From Adlercreutzia hattorii (lineage in GTDB: Bacteria > Actinomycetota > Coriobacteriia > Coriobacteriales > Eggerthellaceae), in contig NZ_AP022829.1 in NCBI RefSeq assembly GCF_011405655.1, positions 1,411,001 through 1,475,000 of the forward strand: 64,000 bases of DNA, written 5' to 3'. The notes beneath the pieces were generated by a model. That model made no database searches and was not told the DNA's origin. It saw only the letters and a program-made list of their open reading frames with translations. The position numbers and the translations under genes are program-made. Every line of letters starts with the position of its first letter. The stretch's first letter is position 1. This document shows positions 27,916 to 58,901 of this stretch, piece by piece.

Positions 27916-28476
27916 ATGGCAAAGACCTCCAAGATCGCAAAGGCTCCCAAGTCCTTCAAGTCCTACGCGCTGAACAAGTGCCTCATCGGCTACGGCGTGG
28001 TGAACGGCATCATCAACGCGGCCATCTTCGCCGGCATCAACGCCGGCGCTCCCGATGCGATGTTCGGCATGCACGACATCGTGCACGACCTCGCCTTCAC
28101 CGGCCTTCTCCTCGGTATGCTGCTGTTCGCCTGCGTCGTGCCGCTCACCCGCATGGATCTGCGCAAGGGCGTTTTCTCCCTGCCCGGTGCGGCGGGCGGT
28201 GCCTTTCCGCTCGTCTCCTCGTCCTACGCGGTCTCCATTCTCGGCGTGGGCGCGCTCGCCGCGGTGGTCATGACCGGTGCCGGCGCCCTTCTTTCCTTGG
28301 CATTGCCGGCCGCCGGCGCTACCGTGACCGGCATGATGTTCCTCAAGGGCCTGGTGTGCGCTTTGGGCGGCGCGGTCGCCGGCTGGTTCACCATCAGCTT
28401 CGTGGTGCGCGGCCAGCAGAAGGCCGACGAGGTGGCGGCCGCCATGGCCTCCAAGACTGCCGGGGCTGCGCTCTAG
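27916..28476 (+). CDS. Unknown 4-TM membrane protein, paralogue 1
   Basis: 186 residues from the ATG at 27916, which follows AGAAAGGAA. The N-terminus is basic, then there are four hydrophobic helices (about 30-50, 67-88, 108-140 and 145-165) and an Ala-rich tail. A charged loop, Val-Pro-Leu-Thr-Arg-Met-Asp-Leu-Arg-Lys-Gly-Val-Phe, is identical in the next gene. An Asn-Lys-Cys-x-x-Gly-Tyr-Gly-x-x-Asn-Gly-Ile-Ile-Asn-Ala block is shared too. I do not recognise the family. Tandem duplication next to a carrier/hydrolase operon suggests a transport-related or small-molecule role, but nothing in the sequence proves it. Confidence 0.6.
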   Translation: MAKTSKIAKAPKSFKSYALNKCLIGYGVVNGIINAAIFAGINAGAPDAMFGMHDIVHDLAFTGLLLGMLLFACVVPLTRMDLRKGVFSLPGAAGGAFPLVSSSYAVSILGVGALAAVVMTGAGALLSLALPAAGATVTGMMFLKGLVCALGGAVAGWFTISFVVRGQQKADEVAAAMASKTAGAAL

Positions 28477-28770
28477 GATAGCTTGCTCGGTCCTGCGCTT
28501 GCGCCCGTCGAGATCGGTCTTGCGAAAGGCCGTTCCCGGCGGGCGCGCTTTGTTTCGAGCGAGGCGCGGGGCTGCTTGTCGAAACAGGTCGGGAACGAAT
28601 CGGTGGCCCGCCGATGGCAAGGTTGCCCCTAAGGTTCCTCCGTGCCCACCCTTCCGTAACGGCACTCCGGGTTTTCGCCGATGGCATCAGGGCGACGCCC
28701 ATACTGAGAGGCGCCGGGCGACTTCGGCAAGTTGTGCCGGCAGACGAAGATCCCGATGAAAGGAATGCTC
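28477..28770. other. 294-bp gap between the tandem 4-TM genes
   Basis: No gene, strong terminator or clear promoter was recognised here. Composition is GC-rich. The downstream gene has its own GAAAGGA ribosome site, so it may also have its own promoter. Confidence 0.3.
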
Positions 28771-29307
28771 ATGGCAAAGTCAATGGCTGGCTCGGCGCCC
28801 GCGGCGCCGACGCGGTCCGCCAAGCCGTTCAATTCATACTTACTGAATAAGTGCATCGTCGGTTACGGCATCATCAACGGCATCATCAATGCGGTCATTT
28901 TCTATCTTATGCACCTGTCTGAGCCCGAGCTCCTCTTCAGCGAGGCCGACATCTTCCATGACTTCGCGCTTACGGGGGTTCTGCTCGGCATTCTGCTGTT
29001 CGTCATCGTGGTGCCGCTCACCCGCATGGATCTGCGCAAGGGCGTTTTCTCCGGGCCGAATGTCGCCAATCTCGGCGGCGCGGCGTCTCTCGTGCCAGCA
29101 AGCTACGCTCCGGCGCTGCTCGTGGCAACGGTTGCCGCCACTGTCTCGCTGATGGGCGTCGGTGCTTTCGCCTGCGTGCTTCTGCCGCTGCCGCTTACCG
29201 TGACGGGTCTTATGCTGCTCAAGGGCCTTGTGTGCGCTTGCGCCGGTGCCGTCGCCGGGTACATCACGATCTGCTACGTCGTGCGCTCTGGCAAAAGCGA
29301 GGCCTAG
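28771..29307 (+). CDS. Unknown 4-TM membrane protein, paralogue 2
   Basis: 178 residues from the ATG at 28771, preceded by GAAAGGA. The layout is as in the gene at 27916, with about half the residues the same by eye, including the shared charged loop after TM2 and the Asn-Lys-Cys block at the N-terminus. A histidine/acid pair in the TM1-TM2 loop (Asp-Ile-x-His-Asp) is conserved in both. Family and function are unknown. The two genes arose by tandem duplication and have diverged. A strong terminator follows. Confidence 0.6.
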   Translation: MAKSMAGSAPAAPTRSAKPFNSYLLNKCIVGYGIINGIINAVIFYLMHLSEPELLFSEADIFHDFALTGVLLGILLFVIVVPLTRMDLRKGVFSGPNVANLGGAASLVPASYAPALLVATVAATVSLMGVGAFACVLLPLPLTVTGLMLLKGLVCACAGAVAGYITICYVVRSGKSEA

Positions 29308-29571: not shown

Positions 29572-30972
29572 GTGGAAACTAAGGTTGAGTCCCTGGAGGG
29601 CAACAAGGTCAAGGTCACCGTCACGGTGGACGCCGCCGATATCGACGGCCGCATCAAGAAAACCTACAAGGACTTCGCTCGCAAGTACAACTTCCCGGGA
29701 TTCCGCAAGGGCAAGGCCCCGCGCCCGGTTATCGACAACGCGCTGGGCGCCGAGGCGGTCGTCGGCACCGTCACCGAGGAGCTGCTGAACGGCACGTGGA
29801 CGGCCGCGATCGACGAGGCCAAGCTCGCCCCGGTGGGCGGCCCGGTCATGGAGACCAACGAGATCGTGAAGGCCGGCGAGCCCTACGAGTACTCCTTCAC
29901 CATCGAGCTGCGCCCCGAGGTGGAGCTTACCAGCTACGAGCCCGTGGCCATCGAGATGCCCTTCGCCGAGGCCACCGATGCCGAGATCGACGAGCAGGTC
30001 GAGGCCATGGCCGAGCACTACACCGACTACGAGGACGCTTCCGCCGCTACCAAGATGAAGCCGGAGAACTACGCCGACCTCACCATGAAGGCCACCGACG
30101 CCGACGGCAACGAGATCGCCGCGCTCGCGAGCGAGTCCCGTCTGTACGGCCCGGGCACCGGCATGTTCTCCGAGGCCTTCGACGAGGAGATCCTCGGCAT
30201 GAAGAAGGGCCAGACCAAAGAGTTCACGCTCGAGATTCCCGAGGACGAGACGGCCGTGCTTCTGGCCGGGCAGGCAGGCAAGCCTGTCACCTTCGAGGTC
30301 ACCTGCAACGTGGTGAAGAAGAAGGTCACGCCCGAGGTCACCGACGAGTGGGCCAAGGAGAAGATGGGCTTCGAGTCCGTCGAGGACATGCGCGAGCGCA
30401 TCAAGGAGTCGCTGAATGCGCAGAAGGGCTCGCTGATGCCGCGCATCAAGGAGAACAACATCATGGTCGAGCTGCGCGACCGCGTCGAGGGCGATGTGCC
30501 CGAGTCGCTCGTCGAGCAGGCCGAGACATCGCTGCTCCAGGACTTCTTCGGCCAGCTGCAGCAGGCCGGCATGACCTTCGACGCCTACCTGGCCAGCCGG
30601 AACATCACGCCCGACCAGTTCAAGGCCGACCTGAAGGCCCAGTCCGCCGACCAGGTGAAGGAAGAGCTGGCGCTCGAGGCGTGGGCGCGCCACAACAACA
30701 TGGAGATCACCGACGAGGACGTCACTGCCGAGTTCGCCAAGACCGGCGTTGAGGATCCCGCGGCGCTGGAGCAGGAGTGGCGCGACGCCGGCCGTCTGCA
30801 CCTCATCCGCACCGGTCTTTTGCGCCAGAAGGCCATCGAGGATCTCATGGAGAACGCGAATGTGACCGAGGTGGACTTCGCCGCCAAGGCCGCCGAGGAG
30901 AAGAAGGCCGCCAAGAAGCCGGCGAAGAAGAAGGCTGCCAAGAAGGACGAGGCTGAAGAGGCCGCCGAGTAG
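29572..30972 (+). CDS. tig: Trigger factor (ribosome-associated chaperone/prolyl isomerase)
   Basis: 466 residues from the GTG at 29572, chosen because GGAGGA (29559-29564) is ideally spaced and the family begins this close to the Glu-x-Lys-Val-Glu strand; an in-frame ATG lies at 29557. The N-terminal ribosome-binding domain holds the Gly-Phe-Arg-Lys-Gly-Lys-Ala-Pro loop (about residues 42-50). The FKBP-like PPIase domain is about 150-245 and the helical substrate-cradle about 250-430. The end is a Lys/Ala/Glu-rich tail typical of actinobacterial versions. It meets nascent chains at the ribosome exit. The order tig-clpP-clpX is the widely conserved one. Confidence 0.95.
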   Translation: METKVESLEGNKVKVTVTVDAADIDGRIKKTYKDFARKYNFPGFRKGKAPRPVIDNALGAEAVVGTVTEELLNGTWTAAIDEAKLAPVGGPVMETNEIVKAGEPYEYSFTIELRPEVELTSYEPVAIEMPFAEATDAEIDEQVEAMAEHYTDYEDASAATKMKPENYADLTMKATDADGNEIAALASESRLYGPGTGMFSEAFDEEILGMKKGQTKEFTLEIPEDETAVLLAGQAGKPVTFEVTCNVVKKKVTPEVTDEWAKEKMGFESVEDMRERIKESLNAQKGSLMPRIKENNIMVELRDRVEGDVPESLVEQAETSLLQDFFGQLQQAGMTFDAYLASRNITPDQFKADLKAQSADQVKEELALEAWARHNNMEITDEDVTAEFAKTGVEDPAALEQEWRDAGRLHLIRTGLLRQKAIEDLMENANVTEVDFAAKAAEEKKAAKKPAKKKAAKKDEAEEAAE

Positions 30973-30994: not shown

Positions 30995-31022
30995 GAAGGG
31001 CGGGCTTATCCCGCCCTTCTTG
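30995..31022 (+). terminator. Intrinsic terminator of tig
   Basis: GAAGGGCGGG (30995-31004) pairs with CCCGCCCTTC (31010-31019) across a 5-nt loop; a weak T-tract follows. Confidence 0.75.
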
Positions 31023-31062
31023 TTGGGGGTCTCCCAAAAGCGGGCTACGGGGTACAGCTCAG

Positions 31063-31153
31063 TCGCTCAGACAGTCCTCGCTCGGCAGAACAGGACATTT
31101 AGTCCTGTTCTGTTCGCTGCGGAACTCGCTTGGTGAGCAGCACCCCGTATCCC
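31063..31153. repeat. Intergenic repeat family 2, copy A
   Basis: This 90-bp segment shares most of its sequence with 41855-41945: TCGCTCAGACAGTCCTCGCTC, AACAGGACATTTAGTCCTGTT, TTCGCTGCGGAACTCGCT and ACCCCGT blocks. The core is an 11-bp hairpin (31086-31096 with 31102-31112, loop ATTTA). Compared with copy B, two base pairs in the stem differ on both sides while pairing is kept. A shorter echo (GAACACCCCGTGT) lies at about 31190-31202. The element sits between tig and clpP and is non-coding. Confidence 0.75.
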
Positions 31154-31336
31154 TTTAAGCTCTTACATTCTTCGAAGTGTTCCTAACCTGAACACCCCGT
31201 GTCTTCATCCTGTCTTCCATGCTCCCGTATGGGCGTTTTGCATTCGGGCTTGCATTGCGAACGGATGTATAGCAATATGATCTTGAACTATGTGAAGGCC
31301 GCTGCGAGCGGCCCTATTTACGAAAGCGAGGTATCT

Positions 31337-41812: not shown

Positions 41813-41854
41813 AGTCGTGAGTCTCCCTCGGGCGGGACCACGCGGTATTCTGAT

Positions 41855-41945
41855 TCGCTCAGACAGTCCTCGCTCTGCGAAACAGGACATTTAGTCCTGT
41901 TTCGTTCGCTGCGGAACTCGCTCGGTCAGAACACCCCGTGTTCCC
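41855..41945. repeat. Intergenic repeat family 2, copy B
   Basis: This is the same element as 31063-31153 in the same orientation. The hairpin CGAAACAGGAC (41878-41888) pairs with 41894-41904 around ATTTA. Relative to copy A the stem has swapped two base pairs with pairing kept. It lies between trxA and trxB. The blocks before and after the hairpin (TCGCTCAGACAGTCCTCGCTC and TTCGCTGCGGAACTCGCT) are nearly identical in both copies. Confidence 0.75.
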
Positions 41946-41968
41946 GCTAAACATTGCCACGGTTGAAG

Positions 41969-58825: not shown

Positions 58826-58838
58826 TTCGTTCACTCAG

Positions 58839-58890
58839 CCTTCCCCACAAAGGCCCCCGCGCATCAGTGCGGGGGCCTTTGTGGGGAAGG
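58839..58890. terminator. 22-bp perfect hairpin, bidirectional terminator
   Basis: The arm at 58839-58860 is the exact complement of 58869-58890 around an 8-nt loop, and CCTTTT follows. It lies between the flavoprotein remnant and the dgt stop at 58902, ending transcription from both sides. Confidence 0.85.
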
Positions 58891-58901
58891 CCTTTTCAGC
58901 C

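Follow-up and report, generated by a model that had tools for sequence, protein, structure and literature searches.

An interspersed, gene-less palindromic repeat family with two covarying helices in Adlercreutzia and other Coriobacteriia

What kind of element are copies A and B, two near-identical stretches standing between genes of Adlercreutzia hattorii, and is the hairpin that they share kept in RNA or in DNA? The window, by which we mean the whole stretch of 64,000 nt analysed here, covers positions 1,411,001-1,475,000 of a genome assembled as one contig (2,908,404 bases). An earlier note, made from the sequence alone, had placed copies of a 90-bp repeat at 31063 and 41855 and had pointed to two compensated base pairs in an 11-bp hairpin. 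The likeness was confirmed, 31063-31148 aligning with 41855-41939 at 89.5% identity (E 3e-27). The inner helix arms of copy A, CAGAACAGGAC at 31086-31096 and GTCCTGTTCTG at 31102-31112, are 100% complementary, as are those of copy B, CGAAACAGGAC at 41878-41888 and GTCCTGTTTCG at 41894-41904, so two adjacent pairs do differ on both strands.

The size of 90 bp proved too small: the element comes to ~155 bp and has an additional outer helix that the note had missed. Inverted-repeat pairing places this helix at 31042-31061 with 31134-31153 in copy A (20 nt, 85% pairing) and at 41832-41853 with 41926-41947 in copy B (22 nt, 86% pairing). Between the outer and inner helices lie two conserved blocks, the left one (CGCTCAGACAGTCCTCGCT in copy A) at 31064-31082 from a pattern search and information content and at 41856-41874 from the pattern search, the right one (CTGCGGAACTCGCT in copy A) at 31117-31130 from information content and at 41909-41922 from sequence comparison. 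Judged from the family profile over 146 copies and the model matches, the whole of copy A would span ~158 bp (31018-31175) and the whole of copy B 41813-41967, all features being given on the plus strand. Copy A is in the spacer between tig (ending at 30972) and clpP; copy B occupies nearly all of the trxB-trxA spacer and is antisense to both genes (gene names by NCBIfam). Also borne out was a shorter echo after copy A, the 13 nt GAACACCCCGTGT at 31190-31202, which recurs unchanged within copy B's right outer arm at 41929-41941 and is probably the remnant of another copy. No intrinsic terminator (a G+C hairpin followed by a T run) was found at copy A or B, two matches at 31216-31236 falling outside.

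The covariance model that the earlier note had proposed was built, and in the window it recovers copy A at 110 bits (31036-31158) and copy B at 119 bits (41828-41950). The next-best window match, at 58836-58892, scores 24.9 bits (E ~0.03 at genome scale, above the 0.001 threshold) and is a plain hairpin without the blocks, long, perfectly paired and rich in G+C (CCTTCCCCACAAAGGCCCCCGC...GCGGGGGCCTTTGTGGGGAAGG, at 58832-58890).

Copies A and B belong to a dispersed family of palindromes that carry no genes, lie mostly outside genes and number in the tens per genome. The A. hattorii genome (2.9 Mb) contains 44 DNA matches at E<=0.001. A genome-wide search for the flanking blocks, likewise suggested earlier, gave 38 matches to the left-block pattern with up to 3 mismatches and 0 to the reversed control. 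We read 36 of the 38 as copies; two 3-mismatch matches fall outside that set, as do at least two copies that diverge further (L014, L017). A right block follows within 140 nt in 32 of the 36, and in the other four it is cut, changed or missing, two of these having a shortened right block. Inner hairpins fall into two classes, one of 32-34 nt (19 copies) and a different one of 55-56 nt (13 copies). The second, GGTATCGAAGGC...GCCTTCGATACC, stands between the same two blocks (L028 1501-1619; L024/L027; L029), as if inner modules were interchangeable between copies. There is also a short array of right halves near 506,139-506,297, where (G000:C1:506027-506297; L110, L022, L023) the halves stand in tandem at a spacing of ~60-66 nt next to one full copy. 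Among 146 distinct copies, mostly from Adlercreutzia with some from other Eggerthellaceae, information content extends from ~46 nt before the left block to ~58 nt past the start of the right block, which gives the element its ~155 bp. An outer helix of 22 bp encloses the two conserved blocks, which flank a variable inner hairpin, and there are no genes. The covariation, orientation and ortholog sets used below come from this same material.

To the claim that compensatory change means that structure matters, the family gives strong support. Mutual information was calculated without a given structure from 94 equal-length copies, of which 86 remained after removing those at least 92% alike; the ten best column pairs all belong to the outer 22-bp or the inner 11-bp helix, and the eleventh joins inner-module columns that do not base-pair. 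In these 86 copies 935 of 946 inner helix cells are Watson-Crick (with 3 G-T, 7 A-C and 1 other) and so are 1505 of 1892 outer cells, while redistributing the right arms among copies leaves 72% pairing in the inner and 44% in the outer helix. There are 85 distinct left outer arms among the 86. Some outer mismatches are fixed, one column pair being A-C in 66 of the 86 copies and two others C-T in 39 and 35; outside the fixed columns A-C numbers 69 and G-T 54, 35 of the latter in the two outermost pairs.

A shuffle test used 60 copies selected for diversity from 129 alignable ones (1980 cells). Pairing was found in 85.3% of cells versus 58.0% in shuffles, and changes on both sides in 557 cells versus 175; none of 500 shuffles equalled the observed value on any of five measures. 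Shifting the partner by one column drops pairing from 85.3% to 42-48.5%. One-sided changes that still pair account for 32 of the 1980 cells, the two outermost pairs contributing 18, and 31 of the 33 helix pairs have changes on both sides. The covariation is overwhelming, and the many non-covarying copies that the earlier note had named as a sign of chance were clearly not found across the family.

Whether the pairing is kept in RNA or as a cruciform had been left as alternatives, and the evidence favours pairing in DNA. Gene calls for orientation and context came from a simple codon-usage caller, not annotation. By these, 135 copies of the Eggerthellaceae set lie 50 along and 51 against co-directional neighbouring genes, 7 between divergent and 11 between convergent genes, and 16 inside called ORFs; the nearest facing gene 3′ end is at a median of 17 nt (a raw distance, with no genome-wide baseline). 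RNA tolerates G-T but not A-C mismatches. In 87 copies, with columns L-9, L-18 and all beyond L-22 excluded, we counted 42 A-C versus 7 G-T in copies along the transcript and 21 A-C versus 9 G-T in copies against it; a small control of 8 tRNAs from the same loci had 9 G-T and 0 A-C in 176 pairs. Since G-T does not exceed A-C and the mismatches do not follow the mRNA strand, the pairing looks to be maintained in DNA. Pair changes in the inner helix are nearly free of one-sided intermediates. An excess of A-C on the strand shown means G-T wobbles on the opposite strand, and in copies A and B it is the minus strand whose DNA fold is more stable, by ~6 kcal/mol; the complementary strand is most likely the one recognised. 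RNA is thus disfavoured as the seat of the structure, and the hairpin may still have a role in RNA.

More distant genomes were examined with 101 copies, with codon models retrained per genome. These were chosen by a script requiring at least 15 of 22 pairs after trying offsets, so their pairing rate (2000 of 2222 outer arm cells) is inflated. Of the 95 copies outside ORFs, 35 are sense and 6 antisense no farther than 60 nt from the 3′ end of a gene, and 54 are neither; overall, 32 copies lie along versus 26 against the genes, and 18 of the 101 are between divergent genes. A sense-only 3′ UTR element had looked strong in the first distant loci, four of which were oriented by eye, and the case weakened at 32:26 overall. 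The sense copies near stops in other families leave room for an mRNA role.

At orthologous sites, some Adlercreutzia species carry a copy where others have none. The tig-clpP spacer, home of copy A, is empty in genomes G007, G002 and G005, has one copy in G000 (the A. hattorii genome), G001, G003 and G004, and has two opposite copies in G008. G002 and G005 have a minimal trxB-trxA spacer; the spacer has one copy in G000 and G006, an inverted copy in G004 and two copies in opposite orientation in G001. A third spacer, whose flanks we take to be gpsA and plsY, has the element in three loci and lacks it in two. By eye, the alignments of empty and filled sites gave no sign of a target-site duplication; flank divergence of ~5-25% blurs the borders there. 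In G003 and G008 (L313, L319) the trxB-trxA spacer contains an unrelated palindrome, in G008 of the form GGTTCCGACAGGTGCCTGG...CCAGGTGCCTGTCGGAACC, which suggests a hot spot or another repeat family.

We also compared 86 same-orientation pairs of copies at matching sites, which are non-independent and include one pair drawn from a single locus. In the inner helix, both-sided changes kept the pairing in 133 cases and did not in 4, and 7 changes were one-sided. For outer pairs there were 422 both-sided changes with pairing, 114 both-sided changes unpaired in at least one copy, and 155 one-sided changes. Between L186 and L222, whose flanks are 99% and 88% identical, both outer arms are rewritten while the blocks are kept and the inner arms are identical. 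Such rewriting of both arms would be explicable by template-switch repair or by copies exchanging modules. A template switch from arm to arm would be expected to flip the core too; among 146 copies the tail motif is right of the core in 68 and left of it in 2, both chance-like, so that core inversion by template switch was not seen, which counts against template switching.

The family extends well beyond the genus. Of 138 family genomes, 25 have the exact two-block pattern (from 9 of 48 genera), all nine genomes of the genus among them; the control gave 0. Matches to the covariance model at E<=0.001 occur in 222 of 396 Coriobacteriia genomes (71 of 153 genera), a count that includes weak matches not read individually, and at E<=1e-6 in 204; this class-wide search used rough E-values, at most nine candidates per genome and no decoy genomes. 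On 105 kb of RAYT and IS loci the model gave one match below 0.001, a truncated piece at the end of a locus. We read 30 loci from 14 genomes, all of them strong matches, and the core is recognisable in the 29 displayable ones, at least three with several changes; in the three G308 loci among those read the inner hairpin is missing. Left outer arms are largely unrelated between copies within distant genomes (mean identity 32-46%). Outside the class, the core pattern was found in 3 of 358 phylum genomes (G428, G442, G644; controls 0), and the core also in one Chloroflexi MAG (L170). The phylum-wide total for the pattern, 18 of 396, is a lower bound because the pattern misses inner hairpins longer than ~31 nt, including the window's own (G000 scored 0). 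Carriage by phages was considered and dropped: 2.9 million viral contigs gave 0 exact matches, including those to patterns with gaps of 28-58 and 25-55, the initial patterns having been too short for the hairpin form of the window.

The family appears undescribed, judging by literature searches and Rfam alone. No Rfam family reached its cut-off in the window or in the loci of 20 relatives, in which the element drew only microRNA hairpins below cut-off (best 41.5 bits, cut-off 90), and in the library searched four 12-mers from the conserved blocks matched no paper that is, by its title, about bacterial repeats. We also dismissed the idea that the arms are guides to neighbouring genes, since over 233 copies an arm matches its own flanks (1.2 kb) over about the same maximum length as the arms of other copies do; two exceptions (L176, L432) are taken to hold a second copy.

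The closest comparison is with the REPINs of Bertels and Rainey (2011), in which, as far as the available text of PMC3116915 goes, two conserved blocks surround a variable hairpin with compensatory changes in the stem. Within the same limits of that text (PMC3116915), our element resembles REPINs and the REP-RAYT system in having conserved blocks around a variable stem with compensatory changes, in its tens of copies per genome, mostly intergenic and in both orientations, in some inverted pairs, and in its presence or absence between relatives. It differs in its second, outer variable helix outside the blocks, in blocks that are not simple inverted copies of each other, in one core common to the whole class, and in the transposase by which REPINs are defined. 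At E<=0.001 no Y1 transposase matched in seven of the nine genus genomes or in 6 of 20 further element-rich genomes of the class, including G270 (23 matches to the element) and G192 (12); the other 14 of the 20 have Y1 transposases. RAYT-like open frames (L480-L499) of ~258-329 codons with a helix-turn-helix-like C-terminal end are frequent in Coriobacteriia, and five of five tested proteins match the NCBIfam model REP_Tyr_transpos at 56-74 bits (cut-off 80). The element was credibly found beside none of these genes in 20 neighbourhoods of ~4.3 kb (~2 kb each side), taken from 20 of 22 weak-scoring hits, the best score being 15.4 bits (E 0.23), and RAYT was rejected as the mobiliser. With Y1 absent from seven of nine genomes and no element beside the 20 RAYT-like loci, the element is REPIN-like but not classifiable as a REPIN.

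A resident IS200 transposase fared no better as mobiliser. There are six Y1 matches in the A. hattorii genome, 99.7-100% identical in the pairs compared, and the one scanned is IS200-type; none of the IS200 ends read in this genome resembles the element by eye, and Y1 matches occur in only two of the nine genus genomes. The six IS200-type elements (L061-L066) are near-identical, two of them in tandem, and in front of four of the five insertion sites we saw by eye a hairpin that runs out into a T tract.

We favour, with a probability of about 0.55, a ~155-bp gene-less palindromic DNA element that is built and behaves like a REPIN and is without the REPIN transposase in most genomes of the genus. 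One strand would fold into a long hairpin made up of the variable outer helix, the conserved two-sided core and the variable inner hairpin. The invariant core would be read as folded single-stranded DNA, most likely of the complementary strand, by a putative trans-acting protein, which would also spread the element; the arms would be needed solely as paired arms. Their match would be kept in DNA, by template-switch repair of the hairpin or replacement of whole modules, and not by stepwise G-U changes in mRNA. Copies would settle mostly between co-directional genes near stop codons, presumably at low harm. Against this reading, one-sided changes of outer pairs are not rare in orthologs (155 versus 422), A-C outside the fixed columns is only a little commoner than G-T (69 versus 54), none of the mobiliser candidates examined fits the element, and the empty and filled sites give no evident target-site duplication.

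Among the alternatives, a structured RNA of mRNA 3′ ends (a stabiliser, processing or termination signal), read in sense by a Coriobacteriia RNA-binding protein and merely amplified in Adlercreutzia, seems improbable to us, if well short of far-fetched. It would account for the sense excess within 60 nt of gene 3′ ends in distant genomes (35 versus 6), for hairpins that are strong by RNA energies too, and for four single-match genomes that carry the element within ~10 nt of a stop codon, of what we take to be rho, yebC and glutamate-synthase genes. It sits badly with the balanced orientation (50:51, and 32 versus 26 overall in the distant genomes), with the A-C excess of copies along the transcript and its lack in the tRNA control, with the Rfam result, and with the lack of a T-run hairpin terminator at copy A or B. 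We incline still further against an ordinary REP/REPIN family whose mobilising RAYT Adlercreutzia has recently lost or keeps in a form too divergent for detection. The block and hairpin architecture as given in the available text of PMC3116915, the Y1 genes of 14 of the 20 element-rich genomes and the REP_Tyr_transpos scores are in its favour; set against these are the genomes without Y1 (7 of 9 and 6 of 20), the RAYT-like loci without the element, and the IS200-type character and unrelated ends of the resident enzyme.

A MITE derived from a DDE insertion sequence that is bounded by terminal inverted repeats would likewise be short and gene-less, with inverted-repeat ends and presence or absence between species, but is very unlikely: no part varies more in sequence than the arms (85 different left outer arms among 86 copies, and the low identities of distant genomes), no duplicated target is evident at the blurred borders, and in 32 of 36 cases a right block stands no more than 140 nt from the left one. 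Copies A and B alone would be compatible with chance, or with a common binding site that does not depend on pairing; the shuffle and one-column-shift results refute this rival, and we regard it as negligible.

Within the favoured reading of a REPIN-like DNA element, other systems offer partial parallels. Integron attC sites are recognised as a folded strand with mismatches and have a terminal hairpin of variable length. Our element is like them in that one strand folds better and one mismatch column is conserved, and unlike them in its long invariant sequence blocks. Template switching, in the available text of PMC8794818, maintains hairpins in RNA genes; both that account and ours have stems that pair perfectly and compensatory changes of several bases with no G-U intermediates, while the account concerns RNA genes and here we have a dispersed repeat family. 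A spacer inversion, as in the available text of another template-switch report (PMC8604942), was not seen in copies of the element. Palindromic candidate RNAs of human microbiomes are, in the available text of PMC8040213, intergenic with structures on both strands, as is our element; the four palindromic examples there are from Bacteroidetes and that main text, so far as available, is without Eggerthella and Adlercreutzia, so overlap is possible.

More tentatively, and in our view doubtful, the class-wide family may consist of DNA hairpins whose invariant core is read, in folded single-stranded form, by a putative Coriobacteriia protein other than RAYT that spreads the element and renews both arms together. 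If true, each copy would get a nearly unique pair of matched arms, and the family would be mobilised by a new mechanism and would keep a natural record of DNA repair templated by hairpins. The REPIN-like element raises the question of what copies such a hairpin in genomes without a detected RAYT. About half of the genomes sampled from a class of common gut bacteria carry this repeat family, and its dozens of insertions could be used as markers. Searches for new RNAs should also take heed: the near-perfect covariation of this family seems to have arisen in DNA, and covariation alone is therefore no proof of RNA.

Two smaller observations concern the window. The left end of copy B (41813-41834) reads on the minus strand as the purine-rich GAGGGAGA immediately upstream of the trxB start codon, and the left end of the family is C/T-rich at -33 to -27 in the information profile, so antisense copies may supply ribosome-binding sites. 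At 27947-29057 the window has two adjacent stretches, offset by 873 bp and ~80% identical, which are probably tandemly duplicated genes.
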